Of a stretch of DNA of 64,000 nucleotides, positions 35,898 to 54,025 are shown piece by piece. Each line of letters starts with the position of its first letter. Position 1 is the stretch's first letter. The translations under genes were made by a program, and so were the position numbers. Source of the DNA: Trichocoleus desertorum ATA4-8-CV12 (lineage in GTDB: Bacteria > Cyanobacteriota > Cyanobacteriia > FACHB-46). The notes under the pieces were generated by a model. The model saw only the letters and a list, made by a program, of their open reading frames with translations, was not told the origin of the DNA and did not search any database. The stretch spans positions 1 through 64,000 of the forward strand of contig JAHHIL010000014.1 in assembly GCA_019358975.1 (NCBI GenBank), read 5' to 3'.

Positions 35898-35980
35898 AGA
35901 ATTCCCTTGCCTTTGCTGAGCCAAACTAAAAGTAACCCTGCGATCGCGGCTCACAAGCTGACGCTAGGGTTTAATTTCGA

Positions 35981-37175: not shown

Positions 37176-40100
37176 GTGACGCAGGAATTTCATCTTTCTG
37201 TTACCCCAGTTGGGGAAGATGAGTATTTGATTCGGACGGAGCGGGTTGCCCCAGGGGTGCCCCTAGCAGAGGAACAAGTTATTTGGCCTGTTGAGGAGTG
37301 GCTCAATCAGGCACGTCAATTGATGAACGATCCACTGTTGGGGTTGTTGCAGGGAGATGCAACCCATCCTGCCGCAGATAAACTGCGTGACCCTAGCGAT
37401 CGCGACTTGGACTTAGTATTAGGCAGCAGTGACCCTAGCCAAAGCCAACCGCCGCGTCACTTGGTGGATTTAGGCCAACAGCTTTACAATGCTCTATTCC
37501 AAGGCACGATTCGCGATAGCTGGATGACCGCACAAGGCATTGCCCAGCATCGACGAGAAGTTTTACGGTTACGCATCGGCCTCAAGGGTCCACGTCTAGT
37601 ACGTTTGCCTTGGGAAGTTTTGCACACTGGGGAGCGGCACCGCGTTGGTGGAGCTTCGCGGCCTGTCGCTACTGGGACTGACGTTTTATTTTCTCGCTAT
37701 CAACCCAGTCCAGGGTTAGTCGGGGCAACCACCGCTCTACGAGATTTGAGGCTGGAATCGCAGCAACCTCTCAGGATTTTGATGGCGATCGCTGCTCCCA
37801 CTGACCAAGAACAGTTAGAACTGAAACGTGAGGCGTTACACCTACAAGAAGAACTGCGGAGTCGCAATGGCACTGTCTCAGAAACAGGTAGCGGTACGGC
37901 GGAAATTCAGCTAACTATTCTCGACCAACCCGATCGCGAGCAATTAACCCAAGCTTTAGAACAAGGGCAGTTTCAGGTATTGCACTACGCTGGTCACAGT
38001 AACTTGGGGGCCGCAGGAGGCAACCTCTACCTGGTGAACGGCAAAACTGGGCTAACCGAGGTGCTGAGTGGAGATGACTTGGCTGGGCTGTTGGTCAACA
38101 ATGGCATCCGCATGGTGGTGTTTAACTCTTGCCGTAGTGCCTATACCGCTACTTCAGATTTAGAGCATGAAATTGGTGAACAAAATTTAGCCGAAGCTTT
38201 GGTACAGCGGGGCATTCCTGGCGTATTGGCGATGGCGGAGCGGATTCCCGACGATGTAGCGCTGACTCTGACCAGACTGTTCTACCGTAATCTCAAGCAG
38301 GGGTATCCAGTTGACCTTAGTTTGAGTCGGGCGCGTCAGGGGTTGATCTCTGCCTATGGCTCTCACCAGTTGTACTGGGCGTTGCCGATTCTCTACTTGC
38401 ATCCTGAATTCGACGGGCAACTGGTCACCGGAACTGTACCAGACCTCTACAGTGCTGCTCAAGAAATGGCGACTGCCCGCTGGCGGAGTCCTAGCGATCG
38501 CTCCAACCCTCGTTTAGCGGCGGAAGCAGCTCACCTATCTGACAGCAACGAAGCGGCTTATCCAGCCCTAGATCAAGCTCTCGATGGCTTACCTCCAGAA
38601 TTGCAAGATGATCTTTACGACTACAGCGATGAGGACTTTAGCGATTTAGATAACTTAGAGTTTGAAGACGAGTTTGGCTCTGAAGCGGATTCGGCACTGG
38701 TAGCAGAACTGCTTGAGCAATTGTCGCAGAATCCTACAGATGCCCGACTGGACACCGAAGAACCGTTTTTATCTGCCTCTGCGACTGACAGTTTGTTCGC
38801 AGAATCGCAGCCGTCTGATCTAGATTGGCCAGAGCCCGTTCCGCCTAAACCTCCTCTTAAACCTGCTGCTCTCCCAGCGATCCCTACCTCTTCAGCGTCA
38901 TCCCCAAAGTCGCCTGCCAACTCAGCTGTTGATCCTCGCTTAAGCCAAGTTTTTTCTGATTTGGAGCGTGGATTAGCGGCCCCGATCAATGCCAGTACCG
39001 CGATCGCTACAGCCAGAAAAGCGATTCAAGCTAATCCCAATGATGTAGATGCCTACAACCAGTTAGGTCTGGCTCTCCATCAGCAGGGCAATTTTCCAGA
39101 TGCGATCGCAGCTTACCAAGCAGCCCTAAAAATTAACCCTAGTTTGGCTGAGGTGTATAGTAACTTGGCTTTGGCGCTGTACAAGCAAGGTAAAGCCGCA
39201 GAAGCCAGAACAGCGTATCAACAAGCGTTGAGTTTGTCAGCATTGGCTGGAGGAACGCACTCAAGCGCCGGAAGGAACCCAGCGTTGCAACCTGAATACC
39301 CTGGTCGAAATCCTAGCCGCTGGGGTGCCTGGTGGCAGCAACCTCGTGGGCGCTCTAGGGTGTGGCTAATCTTGGCAGCAGCAGGAGTTACGGCGATCGC
39401 TTTAGTTGGTTTTTGGGGGTTTCAGCGAAATCGGAGTCCACAAATCTCGATTCCAGCCCTACCCGAATCGACGCCCAATAGCGTCAGCGCTTCCTTTGCC
39501 ATTGACCCACAAACCAACCAAACCACCTTAGACCTAAAAACGACTAATACGGCTACAGTGACAGCGGCTGCTATCGATTACCTCAGCCGAAAGCAACTTG
39601 TAGCGGGCCAACAAGCGATCGCAGAATTGCTCGATCGCGGAGCCTTACCCCAAGCTAGTGCGGCTCTGGCTGCTGTTCCTAACACTGTGATTGATGATCC
39701 AGCCGTGAGTTTTCTGCGCGGTCGCCTTGCTTGGCAATCGATGCAAACGGGCAACCAAGACTATAGCGTAGATGATGCTCGCCGTTACTGGGAGACTGCG
39801 GTGCGTCAACAAGCTGAAGCAGAGCAGCCAGATGCCCCGACCCTGGCGCTTTATCAAAACGCGCTAGGCTTTGCTTATTACGGTGAAGGGAACTGGGAGC
39901 GAGCCAACCGAGCTTGGTTCCAAGCGCTCTATTTACAAGAGGAAACGACCGCACCAGTGTCGGCAGCGGAAACTGTCGCGCCGCCAACTACGGCAGCGAG
40001 CCCAGGGGCAACGATCGCTGCACAGCCAATCAAGCAAGAGAATCTCATGGCTTATGCTGGCTTAGCCTTAGTGATCGCCAAGTCAGCCCAAAACCAGCCT

Positions 40101-40268
40101 GCCGAACAGCGAGCCAGTCTCCAGAATGAAGCGGCAAAGCTGTATCAAAAAGTGATGACTGAGAATCCTGTGGCGTTTCAGCCGGAGGCTTTAAGCAAAA
40201 ACTGGATGTGGACTGAAGCAGCCATCAATGACTGGGTAGCCCTAGCTAAGCTGCAACCCCAGCCATAA
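37176..40268 (+). CDS. CHAT-domain protease fused to TPR repeats and a membrane helix
   Basis: From GTG 37176 (GGAG eight bases upstream; an earlier GTG at 37077 adds 33 atypical residues) the product is 1,030 residues. Residues about 160-430 form a CHAT caspase-like protease with His274 in HYAGHS and Cys319 in NSCRS, the expected catalytic dyad. Acidic and Pro-rich linkers follow, then two TPR units (NDVDAYNQLGLALHQQGNF and AEVYSNLALALYKQGKA), a membrane helix (WLILAAAGVTAIALVGFW) and a second TPR-like part. Known TPR-CHAT proteases are effectors activated by partner proteins; this membrane-anchored fusion has no recognisable partner here. Confidence 0.9.
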   Translation: MTQEFHLSVTPVGEDEYLIRTERVAPGVPLAEEQVIWPVEEWLNQARQLMNDPLLGLLQGDATHPAADKLRDPSDRDLDLVLGSSDPSQSQPPRHLVDLGQQLYNALFQGTIRDSWMTAQGIAQHRREVLRLRIGLKGPRLVRLPWEVLHTGERHRVGGASRPVATGTDVLFSRYQPSPGLVGATTALRDLRLESQQPLRILMAIAAPTDQEQLELKREALHLQEELRSRNGTVSETGSGTAEIQLTILDQPDREQLTQALEQGQFQVLHYAGHSNLGAAGGNLYLVNGKTGLTEVLSGDDLAGLLVNNGIRMVVFNSCRSAYTATSDLEHEIGEQNLAEALVQRGIPGVLAMAERIPDDVALTLTRLFYRNLKQGYPVDLSLSRARQGLISAYGSHQLYWALPILYLHPEFDGQLVTGTVPDLYSAAQEMATARWRSPSDRSNPRLAAEAAHLSDSNEAAYPALDQALDGLPPELQDDLYDYSDEDFSDLDNLEFEDEFGSEADSALVAELLEQLSQNPTDARLDTEEPFLSASATDSLFAESQPSDLDWPEPVPPKPPLKPAALPAIPTSSASSPKSPANSAVDPRLSQVFSDLERGLAAPINASTAIATARKAIQANPNDVDAYNQLGLALHQQGNFPDAIAAYQAALKINPSLAEVYSNLALALYKQGKAAEARTAYQQALSLSALAGGTHSSAGRNPALQPEYPGRNPSRWGAWWQQPRGRSRVWLILAAAGVTAIALVGFWGFQRNRSPQISIPALPESTPNSVSASFAIDPQTNQTTLDLKTTNTATVTAAAIDYLSRKQLVAGQQAIAELLDRGALPQASAALAAVPNTVIDDPAVSFLRGRLAWQSMQTGNQDYSVDDARRYWETAVRQQAEAEQPDAPTLALYQNALGFAYYGEGNWERANRAWFQALYLQEETTAPVSAAETVAPPTTAASPGATIAAQPIKQENLMAYAGLALVIAKSAQNQPAEQRASLQNEAAKLYQKVMTENPVAFQPEALSKNWMWTEAAINDWVALAKLQPQP

Positions 40269-40397: not shown

Positions 40398-41705
40398 TTA
40401 CGAGGAAACTTGTGAACTCTTAGCCCAAACTTCTAAAGGTTGTGATGTCTGGTTATAAAGTAGCGCTTCCAAAATGATGGCGTTTGTATTTAGGGTCAGA
40501 GCCCGGTTAGGCTGTTGACTTGCTTCGTAAAAGCCAGCGAATACTCCCTGTTGGGGATCAGCTAGCCAGCGCATCCCCTTGTAGGCCCGCTCTGTATAAC
40601 GAGTCCGGAACAACACATTCCAAGCGGTTGCAATCTTGGTACTGTTACCGCGAAAAGCAGTGGCATCCTCTCCCCAAGGTGTGATGGTTTGCCAAGGACG
40701 ACCATTAGCAACTACGCAGTTGTAGACCTGCCAAGGAGCCTGATCTAGATTCGTTTCTGACCAGGCTGTGAGTTGATTCGTCTCTATATACCGATGCTGT
40801 TGGGCTTGGAGCAAGCGAGCCGCATATTCGACGGGCAGCGCTTTAAAGCCGCTTTCCAGGCCATCCAAAACATAAGGCTCGCTCACAACACAGTTGGGCG
40901 GCGCTCCCTGTTGGTCGGTTGGCACCTCCACATTCATCACATCGACGAATTGGGTTTGCGTCTTCACATCTAGAGCTTGGGTCGGCTTCAGCCCCAGCTT
41001 GCTCAACCCATAAGCTGCATATTGCTCGTAGCCCAGTGTGCCTTCTGGCTGCCAAACTTCCTTACTAGAGACCTTGTTTGCTGCCATCAACTGGCCATCC
41101 TTCACCAGTCGGCCCAACTTCCAACGACTTGTTACCGCTTGAGTAGCCGCCGCATGTTGGGGATAGCGTACTGCAACAATGTCCAGCCAGCGAGCCAATC
41201 TGCCCAGGTCTACTGCCGAAAACCCAACTTCCTGCCGTTTGTCTGGTTGTCCGTAGTCAATCGGCACCAAAGTCGTAGCGTTATAAGCTTTGTTGGGTAG
41301 CTCGTTACGATACAGCGGCAACTCTTTGAGAGTGGTTAGAACTTGAGCCATCCAGGGATCAAACTCTTGCGGAGAAATTAGACCCAGTTCTCGCGCTGCC
41401 ACCATCCCTGCTAACTGATTGGCCGCATCCCACATCGTCGTTGCGGGGAAACCTGCGGCTGAGGTTACTAGACCCGTGGGTGAGCGATTGAGTTCAAAGT
41501 AGCGCCAAGCATTGCGAGCCAGATTTTTATCTTCGCCACTCAAGGGAATTTTTCTGGTGAGGGGAGCAGGTAAAACCGAGGTTTCGCGCCAAGCTAATGC
41601 TTTATGGACGCCAAAGGCAACCAAAAAGATAGCACTGCACAAGGCAACCTGCTGGATCAGATTTAAACGGCGATCGGAGGTTTCCATAACAACTTTTTTA
41701 ATCAT
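40398..41705 (-). CDS. DUF3131-family protein (single domain)
   Basis: A 435-residue protein with an N-terminal membrane segment (QQVALCSAIFLVAFGVHKALAW) and one DUF3131 domain. Family markers are TGLVTSAAGFPATTMWDAANQLAGMVAA, ELPNKAYNATTLVPIDYG, GFSAVDLGRLARWL and GTLGYEQYAAYG. The helical-repeat pattern suggests an alpha/alpha-barrel like those of glycoside hydrolases and lyases, but no activity is established. It sits with opgC, a GT2 and two more DUF3131 genes, so a role in envelope glycan handling is likely. A Met at 41687 is an alternative start. Confidence 0.85.
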   Translation of the reverse strand: MIKKVVMETSDRRLNLIQQVALCSAIFLVAFGVHKALAWRETSVLPAPLTRKIPLSGEDKNLARNAWRYFELNRSPTGLVTSAAGFPATTMWDAANQLAGMVAARELGLISPQEFDPWMAQVLTTLKELPLYRNELPNKAYNATTLVPIDYGQPDKRQEVGFSAVDLGRLARWLDIVAVRYPQHAAATQAVTSRWKLGRLVKDGQLMAANKVSSKEVWQPEGTLGYEQYAAYGLSKLGLKPTQALDVKTQTQFVDVMNVEVPTDQQGAPPNCVVSEPYVLDGLESGFKALPVEYAARLLQAQQHRYIETNQLTAWSETNLDQAPWQVYNCVVANGRPWQTITPWGEDATAFRGNSTKIATAWNVLFRTRYTERAYKGMRWLADPQQGVFAGFYEASQQPNRALTLNTNAIILEALLYNQTSQPLEVWAKSSQVSS

Positions 41706-41728
41706 GAGGCTAGCGAGGGATAGGGAGC

Positions 41729-42910
41729 TTAGCGAGGAACCACGTTAAACAAGACTTGTTTTTTCACGAGGAACCAGAAAAATCCGATCGCGATCGCCTG
41801 TAATAGGGTTGTGACTGGAGCGCTACCTGTGGTGAGACCAGGAATCATAAACCACAGGACCGTCATGGGCACATGCATCACATAGACATAAAGGGAGTTT
41901 TGCCCCAAAGGAATTAAGAGTCTGCCTAATGCTTTGTTGAGGGGTAGCCAAAATGTGTTGACCACCATATACAGCAAGGGAAACAAACCCAATAAGGTGA
42001 TTAACCGAATAGGACCATTGATACTACGGTCAGTCCACTGCAACCACTGAACTCGCTGTGAGACATTAGCAGGCCAGATACCTAATTGCATGTCGTACTG
42101 AGCCGCCACCAACGCCGCAATCACAATCGTGAGTAAAACTGTGACCAGTGGCACTTTAGGAATGCGCGCCCAAAGCTGCTGTAACTGCGATCGGTAGTAG
42201 CCTGCGGCTAAACCATGCACATACAAAATCTGCCAAGAGGCAAAGGAGAAATAAGGATGATCGCGATCGAGCGGGCTAAAGCTTAGGGCATAAGGATGTA
42301 ATTGTTGCAGGCTCCACAAAGACCAAGAAATGGCCAGCAGGGGTGCCCATAAACCTTTCCGCAATAACCAAAACAGACCGGGAGAGGCTACTAAGCACAA
42401 CACATAGAGCTGCAAGATATCTACCACCGGAGGAGCCAGATGAAAGGTGGCCGCAGCTAAGAGAATTTGCCACCAAGTTCCGGGAGCGGTTTCAAAGGCA
42501 GGGCGAGTCCATCCTGGAAAGAGGATCGACAACAGACCCAAAGTTGCCATCAGGATAAAGCTGGTTTTGTAGAGAGTCCAAGCCCGCTCCAGTAGCTTTT
42601 TCATCGCTTCAGGCAGGCCAATTTTTTGAATGCGCTGCCGTGTCACCAGCCCCAAAACCATGCCAGATAAAAAGACAAACCCTTCTGCCGAACTGGCGTA
42701 GATATGCCCCTGTGTGATGTTGTTGAAGTAGGAACGGCTCTCCAAGTGATTGATCACCATTGAAGCGATCGCCAAACCTCGCAGGAAATCTAGGCGAAGA
42801 TCTCGCTTGGCATCCACACTAGGGTCATAAACCCACTGTTTGAGGGAGAAGAGGTAAGTCTTAGGACTGGCTGTATCAGCCATGATAGGCTTTGGCTCTG
42901 AATTGGACAT
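41729..42910 (-). CDS. opgC: OpgC-type membrane acyltransferase
   Basis: A 393-residue integral membrane protein with about ten hydrophobic segments. OpgC proteins succinylate osmoregulated periplasmic glucans in proteobacteria. The family features are the N-terminal RDLRLDFLRGLAIASMVINHL and SSAEGFVFLSGMVLGLVTRQRI, then the late PLGQNSLYVYVMHVPM. It ends 23 bases before the DUF3131 gene on the same strand, so the two are likely co-transcribed. In this neighbourhood it may acylate a polysaccharide rather than a glucan of the proteobacterial type. Confidence 0.88.
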   Translation of the reverse strand: MSNSEPKPIMADTASPKTYLFSLKQWVYDPSVDAKRDLRLDFLRGLAIASMVINHLESRSYFNNITQGHIYASSAEGFVFLSGMVLGLVTRQRIQKIGLPEAMKKLLERAWTLYKTSFILMATLGLLSILFPGWTRPAFETAPGTWWQILLAAATFHLAPPVVDILQLYVLCLVASPGLFWLLRKGLWAPLLAISWSLWSLQQLHPYALSFSPLDRDHPYFSFASWQILYVHGLAAGYYRSQLQQLWARIPKVPLVTVLLTIVIAALVAAQYDMQLGIWPANVSQRVQWLQWTDRSINGPIRLITLLGLFPLLYMVVNTFWLPLNKALGRLLIPLGQNSLYVYVMHVPMTVLWFMIPGLTTGSAPVTTLLQAIAIGFFWFLVKKQVLFNVVPR

Positions 42911-43350
42911 TTAGTCTAGGGCAACAAGCTACTACGAACGAGAAAGCAGGAATATCGAGATAAGTCTATTTTGTTATCTGGGTTACCCTTGTCTCTCCGC
43001 GTCCATCAAATGGCTGAATTTTTGCTGAATTTGCTGCCCCCGCTGATATTAGCGCTGACATTAGCAAGGAAATAGCGATGAACTACAGCTCAATCATCCG
43101 ACTAGGAGCTGGTGTGCATTACATGACAATGCGGCGCTATTAGTCACGCTTTGGGCTAGGACACATCCTGTCTTAAGGGGCAATGGGAAGCCAAACAAAA
43201 GAAGATATCTTAACGCTAGTAGAGTTGAGTAGCAAATTTCACCAGTTGCGATCGCATCTACGTAGAGAGCGAGTCAGGATTTAGCTTGCCACCCTTTTCC
43301 CCATAAGTTCGGTTTGTTAGTAATAGATTAATCAGCCAAATGTAGGATTT
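42911..43350. other. Intergenic region between divergent genes
   Basis: 440 bases holding a 12-bp tandem repeat (GCTGATATTAGC, GCTGACATTAGC at 43042-43065) and a 21-codon frame at 43078. The segment upstream of the pentapeptide gene includes AGGA just before its start codon. No other RNA or gene was seen. Confidence 0.5.
43078..43143 (+). CDS. Possible 21-residue small ORF
   Basis: The frame encodes MNYSSIIRLGAGVHYMTMRRY and is preceded by AAGGA seven bases upstream. It is short enough to occur by chance and I recognise no family; it is listed only because it has a proper ribosome-binding site in an otherwise empty gap. Confidence 0.2.
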   Translation: MNYSSIIRLGAGVHYMTMRRY

Positions 43351-43986
43351 ATGGATACTGAGACGCTCCAGAAGCAATATGACTCCGGAAAACGAGATTT
43401 TATTCAGATTGATTTGGTGGGTGCTAATTTAGCAGGCGTGAACTTAGCGGGAGCGAATCTCAGCGAGGCAAACCTGATGGGTGCTAACCTCAGCAATGCC
43501 AATTTGATGGGCGTAGACCTGTCCAAAGCCAACTTGATTGTCACCAAGCTGGTAGGCGCAAACCTTACAAGGGCTAAACTTGTGAGCGCTAACCTAGATG
43601 GAGCTAATGTCAGTCAAGCCAACTTAACGCGATCGCATTGTAATGAGGCCAACATGACAGGGGCCAATCTTTGTATGGCCGATCTGACGGAGGCCAACTT
43701 CCAAAAAACCGTTTTGAAGGGAGCAGTCTTGCTGATAGGAGCAGATTTAGTTCGGGTGGATTTCAGTGGGGCCAATTTAAGTGGGGCGGTTTTGAGTGGA
43801 GCCAATTTGACAGCAGCCAATTTAACAGGGGCCAATTTGAGTGAAGCCAATTTAAGTGGAGCGAATCTACGCCGAGCCAACTTCGATGGAGCCAATTTGC
43901 GTGGGGCAAACTTACTAGAAGCAGATCTCAGTGAAACCAATTTAGAAACAGCCAATGTGTTTGGCATCAAACGCTCAGAGTCCTAA
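43351..43986 (+). CDS. Pentapeptide-repeat protein, copy 1
   Basis: 211 residues, of which about 25-205 are consecutive A-(D/N)-L-x-x repeats such as LAGANLSEANLMGANLSNAN, folding as a right-handed quadrilateral beta-helix. The repeat is interrupted near ADLVRVD. Cyanobacteria carry dozens of such proteins, most without known function; a few mimic DNA or act in carotenoid or lumen biology. There is no signal peptide. It starts the plus-strand half of the polysaccharide locus. Confidence 0.9.
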   Translation: MDTETLQKQYDSGKRDFIQIDLVGANLAGVNLAGANLSEANLMGANLSNANLMGVDLSKANLIVTKLVGANLTRAKLVSANLDGANVSQANLTRSHCNEANMTGANLCMADLTEANFQKTVLKGAVLLIGADLVRVDFSGANLSGAVLSGANLTAANLTGANLSEANLSGANLRRANFDGANLRGANLLEADLSETNLETANVFGIKRSES

Positions 43987-44045
43987 AAAGTCAAACATAA
44001 TCGCATCGTGCAGATGTCTAGAAAACCTGTGAGGCCGACTTCGAA

Positions 44046-45647
44046 GTGAATTTGCGGAATAAAATCACCATGTTTTTTCCAGGTTTACCACATCTGCGAT
44101 CGCCCTCATTACCGCTTTGGAGTTTAGGCATCTGGATATTAGGAAGCACCGGAACTCAAGCGATCGCGACAACCTCTGTTTCCCTAGATTCCTCATCCTC
44201 CTCAATCCTGGCCGAGCTACAGCCGCACCCCGAACTATCCACTTTAGAAGTAGCCTCCAGCCCAGCTACTAAGACCGTTACAGACACCGTTGCAGACACA
44301 GTCACTCAGCAGCCATTACCTTTTCCAGACCCTAGCTTATCTACCTTAGAAAAATATTCAGAGCCTCCTAATTCACTAGAAGACTTAGAACCCGCCTCGA
44401 TTGATCCAGATCATTTCGACTCTCTAGAACTTAAATCTCCTGCATCTATAGAGATTACTAACTCCCAAGCTTTAAGTCCTGATGCTGCGGTCATGGCTCC
44501 AAAAGAGGAGCAGTCCCTAGCAGAGTACCAAAAGCATCAAGCCCGCTCCGCTGCTTCACTTTTGCCCACCGTTACGATCGCACCAGAAACAGCGATCGAG
44601 CCAGAAACTATGGCTGAAGTAGCCCCGACAACCCACATTGCTGTCGCAGGGCCAGAAAACTTTAACCCTGAATTACGAGTACCCCCGCCACCGCCACCGC
44701 CGTTACCACCACCGCCCCCACCCCCAGCACCAGTAGAAACACCACAGAAGACGGAACCAACCGCATCTAGAGAGCCTGATCTTTTCAAGCTAGAAAATTT
44801 GCAAATCGATTTTCGTGATAATCAAGCTCAATCAGGGCAACATAATCAGTGGATTGAGCCAACTGCTCAATTTCAATTGGGTAATAAAGGCGATCGCCTG
44901 CTAGTCAAAACGGGATTCAATACGTTTGAGGAGCCAGACACCGAAACCGTTACCAACATCCCCATTCAAATCGGATGGCAGACCAAAGTTGGTAAATCAA
45001 CCCTACAAATTGCAGCGGGTGCAGACTTCTTTAACCGCTTACCTGCGGCTTTCAATCTCAATGTGCAAGCCAGCGTTCCGCTCACACCTTCCCTGACCTT
45101 AACGGGAGTTTTAGAACAAGGCCCCTATAAAGCCAATGCCAGAACCTTAGAAAACCAAATCACTGCTTGGCGATTTGGGCCTAATTTATTTTGGCAAATC
45201 GATCGCAAAACAACTCTCTTCTCGTCCTTTCGGGTAGGACTTTATAACGACGGCAATAGTGAAACTCAATCCTTTAGCCGATTGGAACGCAAGTTTGGTC
45301 AATTTCACGCAGCTGCTAATTTGTTCAGTTGGAATGTAAGAAAGGATATGCAAGCAGAGAGTGGCTACTTCTCACCGCCAAATTTCTTGGTCTACAACGG
45401 AGAAATCGGTTGGCAGGGCCAGCCCTTCGAGTTCCTACGCTGTCGGTTAACTGCCAATCTAGGAGGTCAGCGCTTAAAAGAAACAGTCACCAGTGGCTAC
45501 AGCTATCAAGGTCTTTGCACAGCCGAGTTATCACGTTCGATCGAGCTAGATCTGGGCTATACCGTCAGCAATATCTTTACGAGAGAAAGTGGGGAGAGTG
45601 GCTCCCAGAGCAACGCCATCGTCAGCCAGTTTCGGGTCAAATTTTAA
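44046..45647 (+). CDS. Outer-membrane beta-barrel protein with Pro-rich linker
   Basis: A 533-residue protein. The signal peptide is in PSLPLWSLGIWILGSTGTQAIA. Residues about 50-245 are low-complexity Pro/Glu/Thr sequence with poly-Pro runs, crossing the periplasm. The last 270 residues alternate as antiparallel strands (WIEPTAQFQLGNKGDRLLVKT, TPSLTLTGVLEQ, LTANLGGQRL) and end in VSQFRVKF; a terminal Phe marks barrels inserted by BAM. This resembles the barrel part of polysaccharide exporters such as BcsC or PgaA without their TPR superhelix. GTG 44046 or ATG 44070 may be the start. Confidence 0.8.
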   Translation: MNLRNKITMFFPGLPHLRSPSLPLWSLGIWILGSTGTQAIATTSVSLDSSSSSILAELQPHPELSTLEVASSPATKTVTDTVADTVTQQPLPFPDPSLSTLEKYSEPPNSLEDLEPASIDPDHFDSLELKSPASIEITNSQALSPDAAVMAPKEEQSLAEYQKHQARSAASLLPTVTIAPETAIEPETMAEVAPTTHIAVAGPENFNPELRVPPPPPPPLPPPPPPPAPVETPQKTEPTASREPDLFKLENLQIDFRDNQAQSGQHNQWIEPTAQFQLGNKGDRLLVKTGFNTFEEPDTETVTNIPIQIGWQTKVGKSTLQIAAGADFFNRLPAAFNLNVQASVPLTPSLTLTGVLEQGPYKANARTLENQITAWRFGPNLFWQIDRKTTLFSSFRVGLYNDGNSETQSFSRLERKFGQFHAAANLFSWNVRKDMQAESGYFSPPNFLVYNGEIGWQGQPFEFLRCRLTANLGGQRLKETVTSGYSYQGLCTAELSRSIELDLGYTVSNIFTRESGESGSQSNAIVSQFRVKF

Positions 45648-45817
45648 CCTTTTTCAGCCTTAATGCGTAGGTAAATCTCCTATAGGGTATATTTCAGGCG
45701 GCAGCTCCTCAAGTATAAAAAGTATTAACGACTACCCCCACAGATTACAAAATCATAAGACCTTGATTTTCCTGTTTATCAAACTAACGTCATTCTTGTA
45801 GTTGAACTATTTTCTCA

Positions 45818-47278
45818 ATGGATTTTGAACCCCCTTCTAAAAGATTATCGTTACTGGCAATAGTAGGTGGAGTCCTCACCGCTGCCATCGCGATCGCTGG
45901 ACTGGAGACACTTTCTCGCAACTCTCGTCAAGCTCCCCAAGCCGTGACCTCCACCAAGCCAATCGCCAAGCCGCTGCCGTCGCTCCCTCCAGGTCTACCC
46001 CCCGAAGCCACTGAGATCGCGAAGATAGATTCAAAATCCTGGAGTCTGCAAGGCACCCCTGTCCCGCAGCAACAACTCCAAGCAGCCAAAACTCCTTACG
46101 TGGCCGCAGGGGTTGGTAGCCTAACTCCAGCAGAACAGGCGATCGCGCAGACCGCTTGGAAATATTTCAAGGCCAATTGGAATGAGAAAACAGGACTCGT
46201 CAATGCGGTAGATGGTTTTGCCTCGATCACAATGTGGGACCAAGCAGCAGCGCTGGCGGCGTTAGTCAGTGCTAAGGAGCTTGGAATAGTCCCGGAAACA
46301 GAATTTAACGCCAAAATGAGCGTTAGCTTGAAAACCTTAGCCACCATGCCGCTCTACAAAGGTGAGCTACCCAACAAGGTTTACAACGCTAAAACACTGT
46401 TGCCTGTGGGCTATGGCCAGTTAGATAAGCGGCAGGAAATTGGCTGGTCGGCTCTCGACATCGGACGCATGGCCATATGGCTGAAAATCATTGGCGCTAA
46501 ATATCCTCAGTTTCAAGCAGAAACCGAAGCTGTTTGGAAACATTGGAAGGTTGACCGACTTACCAGAGATGGCGAGATGTTCGGTACAGCCGTGGTTAAA
46601 GGCAAGGAACAGCTAAATCAAGAAGGCCGTTTAGGATATGAGAGCTACGCGGCTTATGGCCTCAAGCTCTGGGGTCTAGAGGTTGATAAAGCTTTAGACT
46701 ACCAATCTAAGGTGGCTTACGTTAATCTCTACGGGCAAGGCGTTCCCTACGATCGCCGCGACTATTCCAACAGTCAAGCCAACAACTATGTCCTCAGCGA
46801 GCCTTTTATCCTCGATGGCATAGAAACAGGTTTCCAATCATTACCCAAGCCTTTCGCCGATCGAGTTTTAGAAGCTCAGGCTGCTCGTTATCGCGCTACG
46901 CAGAAGCTCACGGCTGTGACTGAGGATAACCTCGATCGCGCCCCCTACTTTGTCTATAGCACCTTGTTTGTCAATGGGGAACCGTGGTCAACCATTACCT
47001 CCGAGCAAGAGCCACACTACCATCTCCGCTTTCTCAGCACCAAAGCGGCAGTTGGCTGGCATGTCCTCTACAACAACGACTACACCCAAAAACTATTCGA
47101 CTTTGTTAACACCAACATGAAAGCTGAAAAAGGTTGGTACAACGGCTTTTACGAATTATTGAACGAACCGAATGCAGCGTTGACTGCGAACAACAACGGA
47201 GTGGTACTAGAGAGTTTGTTGTATCGAAAAGTAGGCAAACCCCTCACGGTATGGGCAGGAGTGCAATCTACGCCATAG
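45818..47278 (+). CDS. DUF3131-family protein (single domain, membrane-anchored)
   Basis: A 486-residue paralogue of the DUF3131 protein at 40398. It has an N-terminal anchor (LSLLAIVGGVLTAAIAIAGL), a Pro-rich linker and the domain with TGLVNAVDGFASITMWDQAAALAALVSA, ELPNKVYNAKTLLPVGYG, GWSALDIGRMAIWL and GRLGYESYAAYGLKLW. These are the same landmarks in the same order. It is followed after 39 bases by the double-domain paralogue. The anchored, periplasm-facing layout suits processing of an emerging polymer, analogous in position to the BcsZ-type hydrolase in cellulose operons; catalytic residues are not identified. Confidence 0.85.
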   Translation: MDFEPPSKRLSLLAIVGGVLTAAIAIAGLETLSRNSRQAPQAVTSTKPIAKPLPSLPPGLPPEATEIAKIDSKSWSLQGTPVPQQQLQAAKTPYVAAGVGSLTPAEQAIAQTAWKYFKANWNEKTGLVNAVDGFASITMWDQAAALAALVSAKELGIVPETEFNAKMSVSLKTLATMPLYKGELPNKVYNAKTLLPVGYGQLDKRQEIGWSALDIGRMAIWLKIIGAKYPQFQAETEAVWKHWKVDRLTRDGEMFGTAVVKGKEQLNQEGRLGYESYAAYGLKLWGLEVDKALDYQSKVAYVNLYGQGVPYDRRDYSNSQANNYVLSEPFILDGIETGFQSLPKPFADRVLEAQAARYRATQKLTAVTEDNLDRAPYFVYSTLFVNGEPWSTITSEQEPHYHLRFLSTKAAVGWHVLYNNDYTQKLFDFVNTNMKAEKGWYNGFYELLNEPNAALTANNNGVVLESLLYRKVGKPLTVWAGVQSTP

Positions 47279-47317
47279 ATCCTAGCAACAGTCTGCGTCC
47301 CTAATTTGGTTTCCAGA

Positions 47318-50230
47318 ATGCGGAGAACTTTTCAGCCCAGATGGATTCGAGCGATCGCCCTATTTTTGGTCGGGGTCTGCTTTCAATTCCTGCTTAATAC
47401 CTATCTTGCCAAACCAGTAGTAGCTCAGCAACCTGGAGCCACAGGCGGAGCTTGTGCCGAAATTACGGCTCCTTTGACCCCAGAAGAGCAAGCTTATGCC
47501 ACCACTGCTTGGCAATATTTTGTCAAGAACTATCAGCCCACCACGGGGTTTGTGAACTCTGTAGGTGGTTATCCCTCTGGCTCCCTCTGGGATATGGGCA
47601 ACTACTTGACGGCTCTTAATTCTGCCCGTTGGTTGAATCTAATTGATCAAAAAGAGTTTGATAACCGTCTCAACAAGTTTTTAACCACACTGGCTAGTTT
47701 AAGACTGTTTGAGGATACCTTACCGAACAAAGTTTACAACGCTGCCACTGGAGCATTAACAGATTATACGAATAAGCCTGTGGAGCGAGGGATTGGTTGG
47801 TCTGCCCTTGATATCGGGCGTCTGCTAGCCGCCATGCACATTATTCGGACTTGCCACCCTCAATATGCTGACTGGACGAAAGGTGTTCTGTCCAAGTGGC
47901 AGTTGGCTCGCTCCATCAAAGATCAACAGATGTATGGAGCCGCAGTCCTACCAGATGGCAAAACGCTTCCAGTGCAAGAAGGGCGATTAGGCTATGAAGA
48001 ATATGCTGCCAGAGGCTACGAGCTTTGGAATTTGAAGCCCGCCAAGGCCTTGGAAATAGAACCTTTTAAGTTTGTTGATATCAATGGGGTGCAAATTCCA
48101 GTTGATACCCGCGACTATCAAAGCTCTAGTGCCAACAACTATGTTGTGAGTGAATCCTATATCCTTGATGCCATCGAATTTGGTTTAGACGGAACATTGG
48201 CCGATTATGCGGCTAGGGTGCTAGAAGTTCAAAAGCGCCGCTATGAATCGACAGGGCAACTCACTGCTGTTTCTGAAGATAACCTCGACCAAGCTCCCTA
48301 CTTTATCTACAACACCGTCTATTCCAATGGTGTAGCTTGGGCTGCGATCAACGAAAAGAATGAGCCTTTTCCTCAATTCCGCAACATCAGTACAAAGGCC
48401 GCGTTTGGCTGGCGTTATCTCTACCCCGATAATGCCTACGCGCAAAAAGTTTTTGATGCTGTCAAAACCTTAAAAGATCCAGAGAATGCTGGTTTCTATG
48501 CAGGACTGTATGAAACCACCAAGCAACCCAACAAAGCCCTGACAGGTAACACCAATGGGCTGATTCTAGAGATTCTGTACTACAAAGCTCGTGGCAACCG
48601 TCCGTTAATTGGCTCTACTAACGTGACCTTCGCCTCTCCTCGCGGTGCTGCTACCGCATCGCAACCTGCCCCAACTCCTTCAGCACCACCTAGTGCGGCT
48701 GCGAGTCCCGCTGCACCTCCATCTACGACTGCTGCGGCTCCCTCGGCTACACAGCAACCTGCGGCTCAAGCTCAAACGCCTCCTACTCCAACGACTCCAA
48801 CGACTCGTGCTACTGTGCCTCCTGTAAAGGTTGCCGCTATCTCTAGTGTCGGTTCTCAACGTTCCAAGTCTCCCTTAGCAGTTAAACGATTGACTGTGGC
48901 AGAACGTCGTTATGCAGAGGCAGCTTGGAATTATTTCAAGTCCAATTACAACCCAGATACAGGCTTAGTTAGCGATCGCAGTGATCTTAAAACTGCCTCT
49001 CTCTGGGGCATGGGTAACTATTTAGCAGCGCTCAATGCCGCGCGATCGCTAGATATTGTCTCTGCTTCCGAGTTCGACCAACGGGTGCGGCTATTTTTAG
49101 GTGCGATAAGGCAGATCTCACTCTTTGGCGGAGAACTGCCTTATCGAGGTTACGATACGAAAACCTTGCAACCTGTGGATTACGGTGGCAATCCTGTAGC
49201 AGAAGGAAATGGCTGGTCTGGAACTGACGTAGGACGGCTTCTAGCAGCCCTGCATAACTTAAAGAGTTACTATCCCGAATATACAGATGCGGTCGATCAA
49301 ACCGTTCTAGATTGGTCATTTCTGCGCGTGATTCGAGATGGCAAGATCTTTGGTGCCATCACCACACGAGATCAGCAACCCCAAGGATCTGCCCGTTGGT
49401 TAACCCGAATCAAACCTGTTAACTACCTGGGATATGAAGAATATGCCGCTCGCGGCTTTCAGTTGTGGGGCTTTGGGGTCGATCGCTCTGCGGTTGGAGG
49501 TCGCTATGAAACGGCGACAGTAGATGGTGCTCCAGTGCCAACACAGCGATCGCAATCTGGTAATAAAACAGAAGGGCCAACTTACACCGTCAGCGATCCC
49601 TTCGTGTTATATGCCTTGGAGTTTGGCCTCGATCCGCAGATGAAGGAACTGGTACAACCCATCCTGCAAGCCCAAGCCGAGCGCTATCGTCGCACTGGCA
49701 CCTTTACCGCCGCCGGAACCACTTTAATCAACCGTAAACCCTACATTGTGCACAGCACGCTCGTAGGAAAACAGCAGCCTTGGGCCACGCTTGCAGATGA
49801 TGGTTCGGCAATTCCAGAGTTGCGGATTGTCAGCACCGCGATCGCCTTTGCGTTCCGAGCCTTGCTGCCAGAAAACAAGTACGCACGCCAACTAGGAGAG
49901 CAAGTCACAGACTTGTATAGTCCTCTGTTGGGCTACTACGAAGGGTTTTATGAGCAAACTGGGAAACCAACCGTTGCAGCTTTTAGCAGCGGCACCAATA
50001 GCTTGATTCTGCAATCCTTGCTTTACCTAAGCAGCAATCAGCAACCCCTGATTCGGCCCACCCAGTTAACAAAATCTCCTTGGTGGGAGGCGATCGCGGC
50101 AGGAGATTCCGGACGAGGATTGCCTGAGAGAGCGACGCAAGCGATCCAACTGGTGAAGGATAGAGCGGGGACTTACTGGGCCTCAGTGCCAAACAGTGCT
50201 GCGGTTCAGTCTCGCCGACCGGATCTCTAG
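47318..50230 (+). CDS. Tandem double-DUF3131 protein
   Basis: From ATG 47318 the product is 970 residues. After a signal or anchor (IRAIALFLVGVCFQFLLNTYL) come two DUF3131 domains joined by a Pro/Ala/Thr-rich linker of about 80 residues. Domain 1 has TGFVNSVGGYPSGSLWDMGNYLTALNSA and NKVYNAATGALTDYTNKP; domain 2 has TGLVSDRSDLKTASLWGMGNYLAALNAA and GYDTKTLQPVDYGGNP, where the PNK-x-YN motif of the other copies has become PYRGYD. The two domains evidently arose by internal duplication. It ends inside the next frame, close to the GT2 gene start. Confidence 0.88.
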   Translation: MRRTFQPRWIRAIALFLVGVCFQFLLNTYLAKPVVAQQPGATGGACAEITAPLTPEEQAYATTAWQYFVKNYQPTTGFVNSVGGYPSGSLWDMGNYLTALNSARWLNLIDQKEFDNRLNKFLTTLASLRLFEDTLPNKVYNAATGALTDYTNKPVERGIGWSALDIGRLLAAMHIIRTCHPQYADWTKGVLSKWQLARSIKDQQMYGAAVLPDGKTLPVQEGRLGYEEYAARGYELWNLKPAKALEIEPFKFVDINGVQIPVDTRDYQSSSANNYVVSESYILDAIEFGLDGTLADYAARVLEVQKRRYESTGQLTAVSEDNLDQAPYFIYNTVYSNGVAWAAINEKNEPFPQFRNISTKAAFGWRYLYPDNAYAQKVFDAVKTLKDPENAGFYAGLYETTKQPNKALTGNTNGLILEILYYKARGNRPLIGSTNVTFASPRGAATASQPAPTPSAPPSAAASPAAPPSTTAAAPSATQQPAAQAQTPPTPTTPTTRATVPPVKVAAISSVGSQRSKSPLAVKRLTVAERRYAEAAWNYFKSNYNPDTGLVSDRSDLKTASLWGMGNYLAALNAARSLDIVSASEFDQRVRLFLGAIRQISLFGGELPYRGYDTKTLQPVDYGGNPVAEGNGWSGTDVGRLLAALHNLKSYYPEYTDAVDQTVLDWSFLRVIRDGKIFGAITTRDQQPQGSARWLTRIKPVNYLGYEEYAARGFQLWGFGVDRSAVGGRYETATVDGAPVPTQRSQSGNKTEGPTYTVSDPFVLYALEFGLDPQMKELVQPILQAQAERYRRTGTFTAAGTTLINRKPYIVHSTLVGKQQPWATLADDGSAIPELRIVSTAIAFAFRALLPENKYARQLGEQVTDLYSPLLGYYEGFYEQTGKPTVAAFSSGTNSLILQSLLYLSSNQQPLIRPTQLTKSPWWEAIAAGDSGRGLPERATQAIQLVKDRAGTYWASVPNSAAVQSRRPDL

Positions 50231-50297
50231 CTCTATACCTCCCTCGCTATCACCCTCTAGTGTCATTCAATCCCTGGAACTTCTAAAGCCGTTTCGT

Positions 50298-52274
50298 ATG
50301 ATCAGCCCCATCTCCATCGTTGAAGGTAGCCCCAATTTTGCGGGTAACACCCGCTCTCGATTAAAGCAACGAACTCTCCTGTTCCGCTACTTAGCTGAAG
50401 TCAATCTGATTTTAGGAGCATGGTATTTATATTGGCGAATCAACCACTCGATCAATTTTGATGTACTGTGGCTGTCGATTCCCTTGCTCCTGGCAGAGAT
50501 TTACAGCTATATTGGCGGACTCATGTTTACCATCGGGCTTTGGCGGCCCCTGACTCGGCAAGTCAAATCGCTCGATCAGCTAACTCCTGCCATGCCTCCA
50601 TCTAGTTGGCCGACGCTGGATGTGTTTGTCACCTGCTACAACGAAGCAACAGACATTGTGGAGCGGACTGTTCGAGCTGCCTTAGCGATGGACTATCCTG
50701 TTACCAAATTGCGGGTTTACATCCTAGATGATGGTAACTCCCCAGAGATGCGAGCCATGTCTGAGCGTCTGGCTTTAGAAGATTTACAGCTACCACAACT
50801 GCAAGCAGAAAGCGCTCGATTAAGTCGTGAAAGAGTGCAGCTAGCCACTCGCTTAGAGGAACTAAAACAACTAGAACCTGACACGCAAGCCGCCGAAGAT
50901 TTTTTGGCAGATCCCTCAACCATTAACCAAGGCAACTTAGTCTTTGGGTGGTTACAAAGCCTGCAAAAGCTGGTGCTGCTGCTAAATCCAGGCCATGCCA
51001 GCCTACGCGATCGCCTCTTAGCAGAAGCAAAGCATACAGAGGACTTGTTACATCGAAAAGAATTAGAACTGAGTGAACTGCTACGGTGCCGTTATATTGC
51101 TCGCCCAAAACCTGCGGGCAAGCCCCACTATGCCAAAGCGGGCAATATTAACTACGCTATTTTTGCAGGCGGCACCTCAGGAGAATTCATTCTCACCTTA
51201 GACGCTGACCACATCCCCAAGCCCCACTTCCTCAAGCGAGTACTTTCCTATTTCTACACTTACAACGTAGCCACAGGCCGCTACGACAGTAATCGCATTG
51301 CCTTCGTACAGACTCCGCAGGACTTCTACAACATTCCAGTGGGTGACCCGTTTGGGCATCGCGCTAATCTTTTTTATGGTCCAATTCAGCAAGGCAAAGA
51401 CGGTCTCAACTCTGCGTTTTACACAGGCACAAATGCCATCCTTCGCCGGGAAGCTTTGGTTAGCGTCGGTCTCCGCTATTTCTTCAACGAGTACAGCAAA
51501 AATGAACGTCAGTTAAGTGATTTTGACCTCGTGGGTGGCATGTCGAGCAACAGCATTACCGAGGATATGAATACGGCGATGCGTTTACATGCAAATGGTT
51601 GGAAGTCGATCTACCATAACGAAATTTTGGCGGAAGGATTAGCGCCTGACGACCTGAGTTCTACGTTAAAACAACGATTACGTTGGGCACAAGGAACGAT
51701 GCAAGTTATGGTTCGGGAGAATCCTTTCACGAAGCCAGGGCTGACATTTTGGCAGCGATTGCAGTACTTCCAAACCATGTACAGTTACCTGTCGGGTTTC
51801 GCGACTGTAATCTTTATTGCCTGCCCCATCATTTACTTCTTCACAGGTATTATTCCGGTTACATCCTTTGGCCCTGATTTTGCGATACACTTCTTTCCGG
51901 CATTTATTCTGAATCGCCTCACCTTTATGGTGGCAGGTTGGGGCGTTCCAGCTAGGGAGATCTGGCGATCGGAACAGTATGCGATCGCTCTTTTTCCCTT
52001 GTTTATCCAGGCCGTAGTCAGCGTTTTCACCAACCGTTCCATCAAATTCCAAGTCACTCCTAAACAGCGGCAAGCTGGCATTTACTTAGGGTTGGTCATT
52101 CCGCAATTGGCTGTTTTTGTACTGACCATACTTGGTATAGTTTGGAGTCTGTACCGCTTAGCAACAGGCACATTAGAGGACCCTGCGGTTCACCTAATCA
52201 ACGCAGCGTGGTCAATTTATAACCTAGCGCTGTTATTAGTCATTATTCGTGCAGCCGTTTGGCAGCCTGAATAA
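50298..52274 (+). CDS. Cellulose-synthase-like glycosyltransferase family 2 with coiled-coil insertion
   Basis: From ATG 50298 the product is 658 residues. Catalytic GT2 features are the DDG at 144-146, DAD at 302-304, TED at 421-423 and QRLRW at 459-463, as in processive synthases of the BcsA/CelA type. Two membrane helices precede the catalytic domain and about five follow. Between RAMSERLA and CRYIARP there are about 110 extra residues, mostly Leu/Glu/Gln-rich coiled coil with two helices, absent from typical BcsA. No PilZ domain is found, so c-di-GMP control is not expected. An upstream GTG at 50196 overlaps the previous gene. Confidence 0.92.
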   Translation: MISPISIVEGSPNFAGNTRSRLKQRTLLFRYLAEVNLILGAWYLYWRINHSINFDVLWLSIPLLLAEIYSYIGGLMFTIGLWRPLTRQVKSLDQLTPAMPPSSWPTLDVFVTCYNEATDIVERTVRAALAMDYPVTKLRVYILDDGNSPEMRAMSERLALEDLQLPQLQAESARLSRERVQLATRLEELKQLEPDTQAAEDFLADPSTINQGNLVFGWLQSLQKLVLLLNPGHASLRDRLLAEAKHTEDLLHRKELELSELLRCRYIARPKPAGKPHYAKAGNINYAIFAGGTSGEFILTLDADHIPKPHFLKRVLSYFYTYNVATGRYDSNRIAFVQTPQDFYNIPVGDPFGHRANLFYGPIQQGKDGLNSAFYTGTNAILRREALVSVGLRYFFNEYSKNERQLSDFDLVGGMSSNSITEDMNTAMRLHANGWKSIYHNEILAEGLAPDDLSSTLKQRLRWAQGTMQVMVRENPFTKPGLTFWQRLQYFQTMYSYLSGFATVIFIACPIIYFFTGIIPVTSFGPDFAIHFFPAFILNRLTFMVAGWGVPAREIWRSEQYAIALFPLFIQAVVSVFTNRSIKFQVTPKQRQAGIYLGLVIPQLAVFVLTILGIVWSLYRLATGTLEDPAVHLINAAWSIYNLALLLVIIRAAVWQPE

Positions 52275-52355
52275 GCCTTAAAAACTTACTTTCACTACTA
52301 CCAACTACCAAATAGTGAGAGCAAGAGAAATTAAACCTAGTTCGTGAATGGATAG

Positions 52356-52682
52356 ATGATGATGGATTCTCAAGTCAAAGTAATTCAAGCTTCTGGATCA
52401 ATTGATAGCATTAGTGGCAATCAACTCCGGCGAGATGTGAGTGATGCGATCGCATCAGGTGCAAAAATAATTTTAATCGACTGTGAAAAAGCCACTTTTA
52501 TGGACAGTTCAGGGTTAGGAGCTTTAGTCATGATCCTGAAAACCGTACGGGAAGCAGGCGGCAGACTCGCACTTTGCTCAATTATTGATCAAATTGAAAT
52601 GATCCTTCAGTTAACTAGTATGGACAGTTTGTTCGAGATCTTTCCCAATCGAGAAGCCTTCGAGCAAAAGGTTGCCAGCTAG
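52356..52682 (+). CDS. STAS-domain anti-sigma-factor antagonist
   Basis: A 108-residue single STAS domain of the SpoIIAA/RsbV type. The phosphorylatable Ser lies in FMDSSGLGAL (residues 48-55). In partner switching, the unphosphorylated form binds the cognate kinase/anti-sigma protein. The next gene encodes such a kinase, 233 bases downstream. In cyanobacteria such pairs often act outside sigma control, for example in motility and polysaccharide release (Hmp/Slr systems). Placement right after the GT2 suggests it regulates this locus. Confidence 0.9.
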   Translation: MMMDSQVKVIQASGSIDSISGNQLRRDVSDAIASGAKIILIDCEKATFMDSSGLGALVMILKTVREAGGRLALCSIIDQIEMILQLTSMDSLFEIFPNREAFEQKVAS

Positions 52683-52915
52683 TCTGGATTTCGAAAAGCA
52701 GCTAATATTTTTTGTCAGTGTACCTACATTCATTCGCATTCTCTAGTCCATCCCTGTTTTCCCTAAGGCAATTTTTAGGAATCAGGGGTGGCATGAGTTT
52801 TAGTCACCTTAAATCTGATAGCAATTCTGGCATATCAGAAATATAATAAGCCTGTGTTTCCACTCTCAGAATCTCGCCTTATTGTTTGGTTAAGATAAAC
52901 TAAATCAGGTTCCAG

Positions 52916-53338
52916 GTGACTCTACAAAAGCGCCTTCAGGTAACGACAGATCTTACGGAACTCAAGCAAGTATTGCTGTGGTTCGAGCAGTTACAGCAGC
53001 CAACGATTCCTAGAAAAATCTGGATTCAGTGCCAGACGGCTTTAGCCGAAGGATTTACCAATGCCGTCAAGCATGCTCATAGCAATTTACCGCCTGACAC
53101 TGTTGTAGAGATCGAGGTAACTATTACACCTCAACAACTAGAAATTTACGTCTGGGATTCTGGTCCACCTTTTGATCTGATTCAGAAGCTGAAAAGCCAA
53201 GAGCAAACCTTTGATCCGACTGCTTCCAGTGGTAGAGGTTTACAGTTAATCGCTCGGATCGCTGACCAAATTAACTATGTTCGTACTGACGACCAGCGTA
53301 ATTGCTTATCAATGATTAAGTACTACCAAGCATCTTAG
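52916..53338 (+). CDS. Anti-sigma-factor-type serine kinase (RsbW/SpoIIAB-like)
   Basis: A 140-residue GHKL ATPase starting at GTG. The N-box is ALAEGFTNAVKHAH, the G1 box is VWDSGPPFD and the G2 box is ASSGRGLQLIARIAD, so ATP binding should be intact. It would phosphorylate the Ser of the adjacent STAS protein. No sigma factor is in the locus, so its other partner is unknown. Confidence 0.9.
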   Translation: MTLQKRLQVTTDLTELKQVLLWFEQLQQPTIPRKIWIQCQTALAEGFTNAVKHAHSNLPPDTVVEIEVTITPQQLEIYVWDSGPPFDLIQKLKSQEQTFDPTASSGRGLQLIARIADQINYVRTDDQRNCLSMIKYYQAS

Positions 53339-53383: not shown

Positions 53384-54025
53384 TTAGAGATGACAGGTTG
53401 GATCTGGCAAAATGGCTCGACTAAAGTTCGCTGAACTCAGATCAATTTCGCCCAGATCAGCTCCGTGACAATTGGCATCACTAAAGTCAGCTTGACTGAC
53501 ATCAGCACCTCTAAAATCCGCTTCTCTTAAGTCGGTTAAGCTAAAATCTGCTTTAGTTAAACAAGCATTCACTAAATTTGCTCTAAGCAACTTAGCTTCA
53601 CAAAGAGTTGCTTTGTTTAAGTTAGCGGACTTCAGAATTGCACCAGAGAGATCAGCGCCGCTAAAATCTGCTTCATCCAGGCTTGCTCCGTTGAAGTCTG
53701 CGTCTACTAGGGTTGCTCCCATAAATTTTGCCTGGGTAAAAATCGCTCCCTGAGCGATCGCACTCACTAAATTACTACCGTTGAGATTAGCTTGTTTGCA
53801 ATCCGCTTGACTGAGGTTGCTGTTGAGTAGAATCGCTCCGCTTAAATTCACTCCACTTAGGACAGCACCTTGGAGATTAGCAAAGCTCAAATTGGCTTGA
53901 ACCAAACTAATTTCTCTTAGGTCTAAGTTGCTTAAATCTACTTGAATCCCAGGGTTTTCTTTTCGCCACTGGTTCCACTGAGAAACACCTTGTCGCAATA
54001 AAGATAAATACTCTTCGTTTTTCAT
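53384..54025 (-). CDS. Pentapeptide-repeat protein, copy 2
   Basis: 213 residues with A-(D/N)-L/F-x-x repeats from about residue 30 to the end, such as LSGAILLNSNLSQADCKQAN and DLREADFRGADVSQADFSD. The N-terminal 28 residues (EYLSLLRQGVSQWNQWRKEN) are a short helix found before many cyanobacterial pentapeptide domains. It is not a close duplicate of copy 1. It converges on the anti-sigma kinase gene. Confidence 0.9.
   Translation of the reverse strand: MKNEEYLSLLRQGVSQWNQWRKENPGIQVDLSNLDLREISLVQANLSFANLQGAVLSGVNLSGAILLNSNLSQADCKQANLNGSNLVSAIAQGAIFTQAKFMGATLVDADFNGASLDEADFSGADLSGAILKSANLNKATLCEAKLLRANLVNACLTKADFSLTDLREADFRGADVSQADFSDANCHGADLGEIDLSSANFSRAILPDPTCHL

Follow-up and report, generated by a model that had tools for sequence, protein, structure and literature searches.

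A conserved, probable exopolysaccharide cassette in which an RsbW/STAS partner switch may act directly on a cellulose-synthase-like enzyme

Cellulose-type synthases are switched by cyclic di-GMP (c-di-GMP) via PilZ. Another form of control, in which a STAS protein works with an RsbW-type kinase and a PP2C/SpoIIE phosphatase, acts on polysaccharide or motility in the SypA/SypE system of Vibrio fischeri and the HmpUVW system of Nostoc, for which no sigma-factor target is known (PMC8256260, PMC6495340); SypA and HmpV, the STAS outputs of these systems, have unknown targets (PMC8256260, PMC4517449, PMC6495340). Here we describe a gene cluster of the cyanobacterium Trichocoleus desertorum ATA4-8-CV12 in which a STAS/kinase pair lies next to a cellulose-synthase-like enzyme of glycosyltransferase family 2 (GT2). 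It occupies positions 40398-53338 of a stretch of 64,000 nucleotides (contig JAHHIL010000014.1 of assembly GCA_019358975.1, positions 1 to 64,000), which as a whole we call the window. Our reading, to which we give a probability of about 0.65, is that the cluster specifies a synthase-dependent exopolysaccharide system in which the partner switch acts directly on the synthase, in place of c-di-GMP and PilZ. What would be new is this form of control, with the kinase inside the synthase, the exopolysaccharide system itself being of a known general kind; in the open-access literature, to which our search was limited, we met no prior account of kinase-synthase control. The cluster comprises the following features:

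40398..41705, minus strand: D1, a single-domain DUF3131 protein anchored in the membrane at its N-terminus (hydrophobic segment, residues 14-39), partner of OpgC; Pfam E 9e-129
41729..42910, minus strand: OpgC acyltransferase; PF10129 (OpgC_C), E 3e-50
44046..45647, plus strand: outer-membrane 16-strand barrel with a Pro-rich N-terminus and a PgaA/BcsC/PelB fold, as predicted with AlphaFold and Foldseek
45818..47278, plus strand: D2, a single-domain DUF3131 protein with a signal or anchor (hydrophobic segment at residues 8-33); Pfam E 1e-155
47306..50230, plus strand: DD, a tandem double-DUF3131 protein with a signal sequence; two DUF3131 stretches, 1020 bits together
50298..52274, plus strand: processive cellulose-synthase-like GT2 without PilZ; Pfam and PDB matches, distinct clade
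50778..51098, plus strand: helical insert of the GT2, between its DDG and DxD motifs; the site of kinase insertion in 11 relatives
52356..52682, plus strand: STAS protein of the anti-anti-sigma type, with the phosphorylatable Ser (MDSSG); Pfam E 6e-20
52916..53338, plus strand: RsbW/SpoIIAB-type HATPase (serine kinase); HATPase_c_2, E 9e-24

The link between the switch and the synthase comes from a gene fusion, to which the original prediction had not pointed. In 11 genomes an RsbW-type domain is present in frame inside the GT2, between both arms of an insert that is shared with the GT2 of the window (L096, L109, L110, L112, L113, L118, L119, G131, G406, G420 and G401 in our locus and genome labels; G419, which is the same contig as L112, is not counted apart). 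Pfam recovers HATPase_c_2 within the fused GT2 in both of the copies scanned (E 9e-15 and 2e-18). A separate kinase gene was found in none of the 7 fused loci tallied, as against 47 of 56 unfused ones (Fisher p 2e-5), while a STAS gene adjoins the fused gene in most fused loci and, in L096 and G131, a response regulator with PAS, GAF and SpoIIE domains is next along. The features expected of Rsb-type switches, namely the N box and G2 box of the kinase and the Ser of the STAS protein, are all present: the N-box Glu and Asn are invariant in 57/57 kinases, the fused copies included, and the phosphorylatable Ser in 57/57 STAS proteins. Thus the system resembles SypA/SypE and HmpUVW in its trio of STAS, kinase and phosphatase, and differs from them in that the kinase-synthase fusion nominates the synthase as the target. 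The synthase as the output of the switch would be the simplest reading, and it is strongly suggested by the fusion taken together with the conserved gene neighborhood. We consider it somewhat better than an even chance that, more specifically, the switch has the cellulose-synthase-like enzyme as its direct effector, with the RsbW-type kinase either docked on that enzyme or built into it at the position that the plant-conserved region (PCR) has in plant cellulose synthases. One of the fused genes (L164:6583-8937), in G131, has EKLHW in place of the QxxRW motif of the synthase and belongs to a genome without DUF3131, a possible case of synthase decay after the loss of DUF3131.

Several observations weigh against a synthase under direct control. 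The Asp of the kinase G1 box is replaced by Ser in 42 of the 57 kinases, such as the stand-alone copy of L074, so that some copies may not phosphorylate normally; Asp is retained in every fused copy and in the window. The GT2 tree permits a single origin of the fused form and leaves its direction unsettled, and a fusion traceable to one origin is one evolutionary witness rather than eleven. The proteobacterial GT2s do not have the cyanobacterial-type insert, so that docking of the kinase would there need another surface. A SpoIIE phosphatase gene adjoins the switch genes in many relatives, but the cluster in the window has none and could be served only in trans: the nearest homologue in the genome is on another contig, is 64% identical to the phosphatase of a Nostoc cassette and lies beside a second STAS/kinase pair, and this off-cluster phosphatase may serve both pairs. 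Finally, no BcsB-like partner was found, there being neither BcsB nor a GH8 BcsZ among the genes scanned with Pfam between 33.5 and 60.2 kb, though an analogue of BcsB may have escaped detection; the absence of a BcsB equivalent had already been pointed out in the original prediction, which was made from the letters of this DNA and their open reading frames (ORFs).

The second trio, consisting of STAS (55%), RsbW-type kinase (53%) and response-regulator/SpoIIE genes, is located at L162:5431-7559 (contig C9 of the window genome, G000) and is possibly an HmpUVW system. In N. punctiforme the hmpV gene (Npun_F5169) lies apart from hmpU and hmpW (R5135 and R5134; PMC10581220). With hmpV unlinked there and a separate trio on C9 here, the STAS/kinase pair of the cluster is unlikely to represent HmpVW.

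The grouping of these genes is widely conserved. Of 292 genomes sampled from the phylum, 16 have full-length DUF3131, 16 have the GT2 clade and 15 have both (Fisher p 5e-23; p 1.5e-12 when counted by genus), a co-occurrence by which the gene grouping exceeds chance. In a second draw, which took 194 genomes from the class and partly overlaps the first, 19 genomes have the GT2 clade, and in all 19 DUF3131 is encoded no more than about 12 kb away; in G191 of the first draw the two are unlinked. The clade itself is sharply bounded, its members scoring at least 650 bits in the best segment and the next matches less than 155 bits. Of 79 cyanobacterial loci, 63 contain a GT2, and 48 of these 63 keep the order DUF3131-GT2-STAS on one strand. 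The response-regulator/SpoIIE phosphatase family is present in 63 loci, and the barrel and a PIG-L deacetylase in 31 each. DUF3131, OpgC, STAS and kinase are also found together in G035, which branches deeply within the phylum. In many cassettes the PIG-L deacetylase is encoded between GT2 and STAS (e.g. L068:14767-15480), a gene absent in the window that may hint at an amino sugar, and proteins with weak matches to GH26 or a glycosyl-hydrolase core are encoded between DUF3131 and GT2 in some loci (L103:13843-15045, L108:13885-15030 and L054:12676-13749).

Largely the same set of genes is found in nine proteobacterial cassettes, from Pantoea, Salmonella, Chimaeribacter, Vibrio, Paracoccus, Pseudooceanicola and a Rhodobacteraceae member; these are plasmid records, on which the proteobacterial breadth rests. 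Here, response-regulator/SpoIIE, STAS and kinase genes lie beside the GT2, two or three DUF3131 genes and a gene for an OpgC or Acyl_transf_3 protein. OpgC was not seen in the stretches of Vibrio and P. stewartii DC283; the latter, which an insertion sequence interrupts, has no STAS listed, and the STAS of the Vibrio cassette is a candidate. The GT2/DUF3131 DNA of the Salmonella plasmid cassette is absent among 5,426 E. coli genomes. Genes for haem-NO-binding proteins or globins, as well as hybrid kinases, are found near proteobacterial cassettes (L146:8699-9241, L130:14801-15235 and L145:14828-15277), which suggests gas sensing upstream of the switch. Mesorhizobium and Sulfitobacter have two-gene modules of GT2 and DUF3131 without the rest (L133:1275-4106 and L134:6561-9098), one of which adjoins type I secretion genes. 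A 2026 paper on Klebsiella pneumoniae has this gene set under the name of 'block 3b', with a cellulose synthase, three DUF3131, OpgC, a hybrid kinase and an anti-sigma factor with its antagonist, listed among accessory genes without functional analysis (PMC12974863).

The GT2 has the motifs of the processive membrane type (D, D, TED, QxxRW, in the form LDDG, DADH, TED and QRLRW), its nearest solved relatives by PDB matches are cellulose synthases, and its ORF has no Pfam match to PilZ. It scores below the cut-offs of both the CelA equivalog model TIGR03030 (328.6 against 699.1 bits) and the MdoH (OpgH) model (35.9 against 550 bits). The same genome encodes a separate CelA above the cut-off (712.5 bits), 28-34% identical to the GT2, which rules out the latter as the sole cellulose synthase of the organism. 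Cyanobacteria have a described type of synthase, the 'cellulose synthase with PCR domain' (alr3757, Npun_F1469 and SYNPCC7002_A2118), which has no PilZ and bears an insert, between U1 and U2, where plant enzymes have the PCR (PMC12430437). In architecture the GT2 of the window is like alr3757 and Npun_F1469 in both respects and so is not a new family; in the sections of that review consulted, no link of these synthases to DUF3131, OpgC, a secretin or a partner switch was seen. No sequence similarity of the insert itself to the plant region was detected: a profile of it matches plant CesA in the flank only. Simple hydropathy gives the GT2 four C-terminal segments only, as compared with the two N-terminal and five C-terminal transmembrane helices ascribed to the PCR type. 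The insert is helical in character, as the original prediction of a coiled-coil GT2 implied; a test of 3.5-residue periodicity was not significant in its two arms (about 0.13 and 0.14), which makes the coiled coil likely rather than demonstrated.

For the outer membrane, the original prediction had proposed a BcsC-like barrel lacking tetratricopeptide repeats (TPR), and this is borne out by structure prediction. The C-terminal 290 residues (244-533) of the product of 44046-45647 are modeled by AlphaFold as a 16-strand barrel (predicted local-distance score, pLDDT, 92), and the top four Foldseek matches (4y25, 6tzk, 9b8a and 9h80) are PgaA (4y25, TM score 0.79), two BcsC and PelB, all of them polysaccharide secretins. 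By its predicted fold the barrel is thus itself a polysaccharide secretin. The whole ORF has no Pfam match, and hence no TPR; as the TPR scaffold is usual but not universal in synthase-dependent secretion, we keep the system in that wider class. In a Paracoccus cassette this place is taken by a protein that has both TPR and a barrel of PgaA type. Enterobacterial cassettes and Paracoccus seriniphilus encode related proteins that look barrel-like in sequence and belong to no known family; a Vibrio ORF considered for the role (L131:17960-19171) fails to align and was dropped. PgaABCD and PelB export are accordingly close in the barrel and in the Paracoccus protein, and distant in that the GT2 is of another group, PgaB is not present and the window has no TPR.

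OpgC acts on beta-1,2-glucans in known systems. In Cyanobacteria the full-length protein is scarce, occurring in 4 of 292 genomes, all 4 with DUF3131, and its gene usually adjoins one for a D1-type DUF3131 protein. The osmoregulated periplasmic glucan system shares OpgC with the cluster and differs in its OpgH-type glucosyltransferase, for which the GT2 gives no comparable score.

The four DUF3131 domains of the cluster are the whole DUF3131 complement of the genome, and all three proteins carrying them have a hydrophobic N-terminal segment and are on that account probably exported. The first domain of DD is modeled with confidence (pLDDT 93, predicted TM score 0.92) as an (alpha/alpha)6 barrel of glucanase-like fold, as the original prediction had expected, with Foldseek E values of 2.6e-10 to 4e-7 against glucoamylase-like, SGL and cyclization-domain structures. 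The best PDB folds are the beta-1,2-glucanases of GH144, GH162 and GH192-194 together with glucoamylase-annotated kin and the cyclization domain of cyclic beta-1,2-glucan synthase; BcsZ comes further down the list. At the sequence level, an 18-domain profile searched against PDB found a single sequence under E 10, the cyclization domain 8wy1 (E 2.6e-4), and hhalign against GH144 gave E 6e-6 and probability 85 over the N-terminal third only, with a shared SxxD motif. S103, D106, E162 and E228 vary little or not at all among 34 domains taken from Cyanobacteria and Proteobacteria; D106, E162, E168 and E228 are candidate acids, the profile alignment being unreliable in the C-terminal half. The paper defining the SGL clan (GH144, GH162, GH189 and GH192-194) names three defining residues, E, F and Y of the active site, and does not mention DUF3131 (PMC12102758); beyond the N-terminal third these residues cannot be mapped on DUF3131 by profile alignment. 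Judging from the models, DUF3131 would belong to the beta-1,2-glucanase fold superfamily, like the clan in fold and in remote N-terminal homology and unlike it in having no mapped clan-defining residues; a shared activity is a prediction.

Taken together, these components allow a mechanism to be proposed. The inner-membrane GT2 would polymerize and extrude a glycan, probably beta-linked, and the exported DUF3131 barrels would bind, cut or transfer its chains in the periplasm, the role that BcsZ has in cellulose secretion. OpgC with the paired DUF3131 protein D1 may put acyl groups on the polymer, and the 16-strand barrel would let the chain out across the outer membrane. The RsbW-type kinase, docked on the helical insert of the GT2 or, in some relatives, built into it, would keep the synthase in one state until a response-regulator/SpoIIE phosphatase dephosphorylates the STAS protein, which could then bind the kinase and switch the synthase on or off; phosphorylation of STAS by the kinase would reset the system. 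The likeness to BcsA-BcsB-BcsC-BcsZ is evident in the processive GT2, the periplasmic (alpha/alpha)6 hydrolase-like protein and the 16-strand barrel. The cluster differs in having no PilZ, a TPR-less barrel, no BcsB seen, DUF3131 for GH8, an OpgC and a partner switch for c-di-GMP. The parallel to cellulose secretion that the original prediction drew is therefore upheld, but its claim of different families at each step is overstated, since the GT2 is of a known type, the barrel shares the fold of BcsC and PgaA, and BcsZ is among the fold matches of DUF3131; likewise, of its candidate new system there remains a real, conserved and little-studied gene set, with a synthase that, having the architecture of the PCR type, is not a new family.

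What the polymer is admits of other accounts. The cluster could be an ordinary cyanobacterial cellulose operon, with the GT2 as a PCR-type cellulose synthase and DUF3131 proteins as cellulases replacing BcsZ, which would suit the synthase motifs, the nearest solved structures, the lack of PilZ, the U1-U2 insert resembling that of alr3757 and Npun_F1469 (PMC12430437) and the presence of BcsZ among the fold matches. Nevertheless, the score below the CelA cut-off, the separate CelA in the same genome, the beta-1,2-glucanases rather than cellulases at the top of the DUF3131 matches, and an OpgC and a partner switch not known from bcs operons make it rather unlikely. Those same top folds, along with the remote N-terminal homology to GH144 and the GH189 cyclization domain and an acyltransferase gene of OpgC type, would fit an osmoregulated beta-1,2-linked glucan, linear or cyclic and possibly succinylated, with DUF3131 as a glucanase or glucanotransferase; moreover, a Shewanella gene group with DUF3131 is a salt-shock expression module (PMC8371737). 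We hold this to be unlikely too, as the GT2 is far from OpgH, an outer-membrane secretin favors export over periplasmic retention, the GH16, GH26-like and PIG-L genes of some cassettes point to other linkages or sugars, and the three residues defining the SGL clan are not mappable. Both alternatives concern the product and are compatible with direct control of the synthase by the switch.

A third alternative keeps the secretion system and denies that control: the STAS/RsbW pair would be a conventional switch on a sigma factor or on transcription of the cluster, merely co-located with it, and the fusion an idiosyncrasy of one lineage. Sigma factors are, after all, the classical targets of such pairs, the window genome has a second STAS/kinase/SpoIIE trio elsewhere, and the fusion may have arisen once. 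Yet no sigma factor was found near the cassettes, nor in the 25 Pfam families listed for 50 neighboring ORFs (18 single-member families not displayed); a kinase lodged within a membrane enzyme is in a poor position for sequestering sigma factors; the fused genomes, though they have no separate kinase gene, retain STAS and, in the cases observed, the phosphatase as well; and published STAS proteins of similar style, SypA and HmpV, have no known sigma targets (PMC8256260). Accordingly, we regard a conventional switch as quite improbable and prefer the synthase as the direct target.

As for the arrangement of the cluster, every gene named in the original prediction is an intact ORF where it had been placed, with one correction: the GT2 starts, by comparison with homologues, at ATG 50298 and not at GTG 50196. 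Pfam supports OpgC, the GT2 without PilZ and the STAS/anti-sigma-kinase pair, and assigns one, one and two domains to the two single-domain and one tandem DUF3131 proteins. From the barrel through to the kinase, all of these genes are on the plus strand, and OpgC and D1 are on the opposite strand with 24 bases between them. Two pentapeptide-repeat genes, one in the cluster (43351-43986, plus strand) and one beside it (53384-54025, minus strand), have no recurring role that we could see. Upstream, at 33572-40268 on the plus strand, a subtilase with DUF5942 and a 1063-aa CHAT-TPR protein are encoded, apparently unrelated to the cluster.

The association of DUF3131 with GT2, for which the original prediction had asked a neighborhood comparison, is kept in Cyanobacteria and in the proteobacterial cassettes, and the set bearing the switch spans both groups, including plasmid cassettes of Salmonella and Pantoea and an accessory block of Klebsiella. 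For DUF3131, a family scarcely named in the open-access literature, the predicted structure offers a place in the beta-1,2-glucanase fold superfamily. If the proposed control is true, such enzymes would have a second principle of control beside c-di-GMP and PilZ, namely a partner switch that is based on serine phosphorylation and wired directly to the synthase. The same logic, in a comparison drawn from publications alone, would also give a candidate type of target for the STAS proteins SypA and HmpV.

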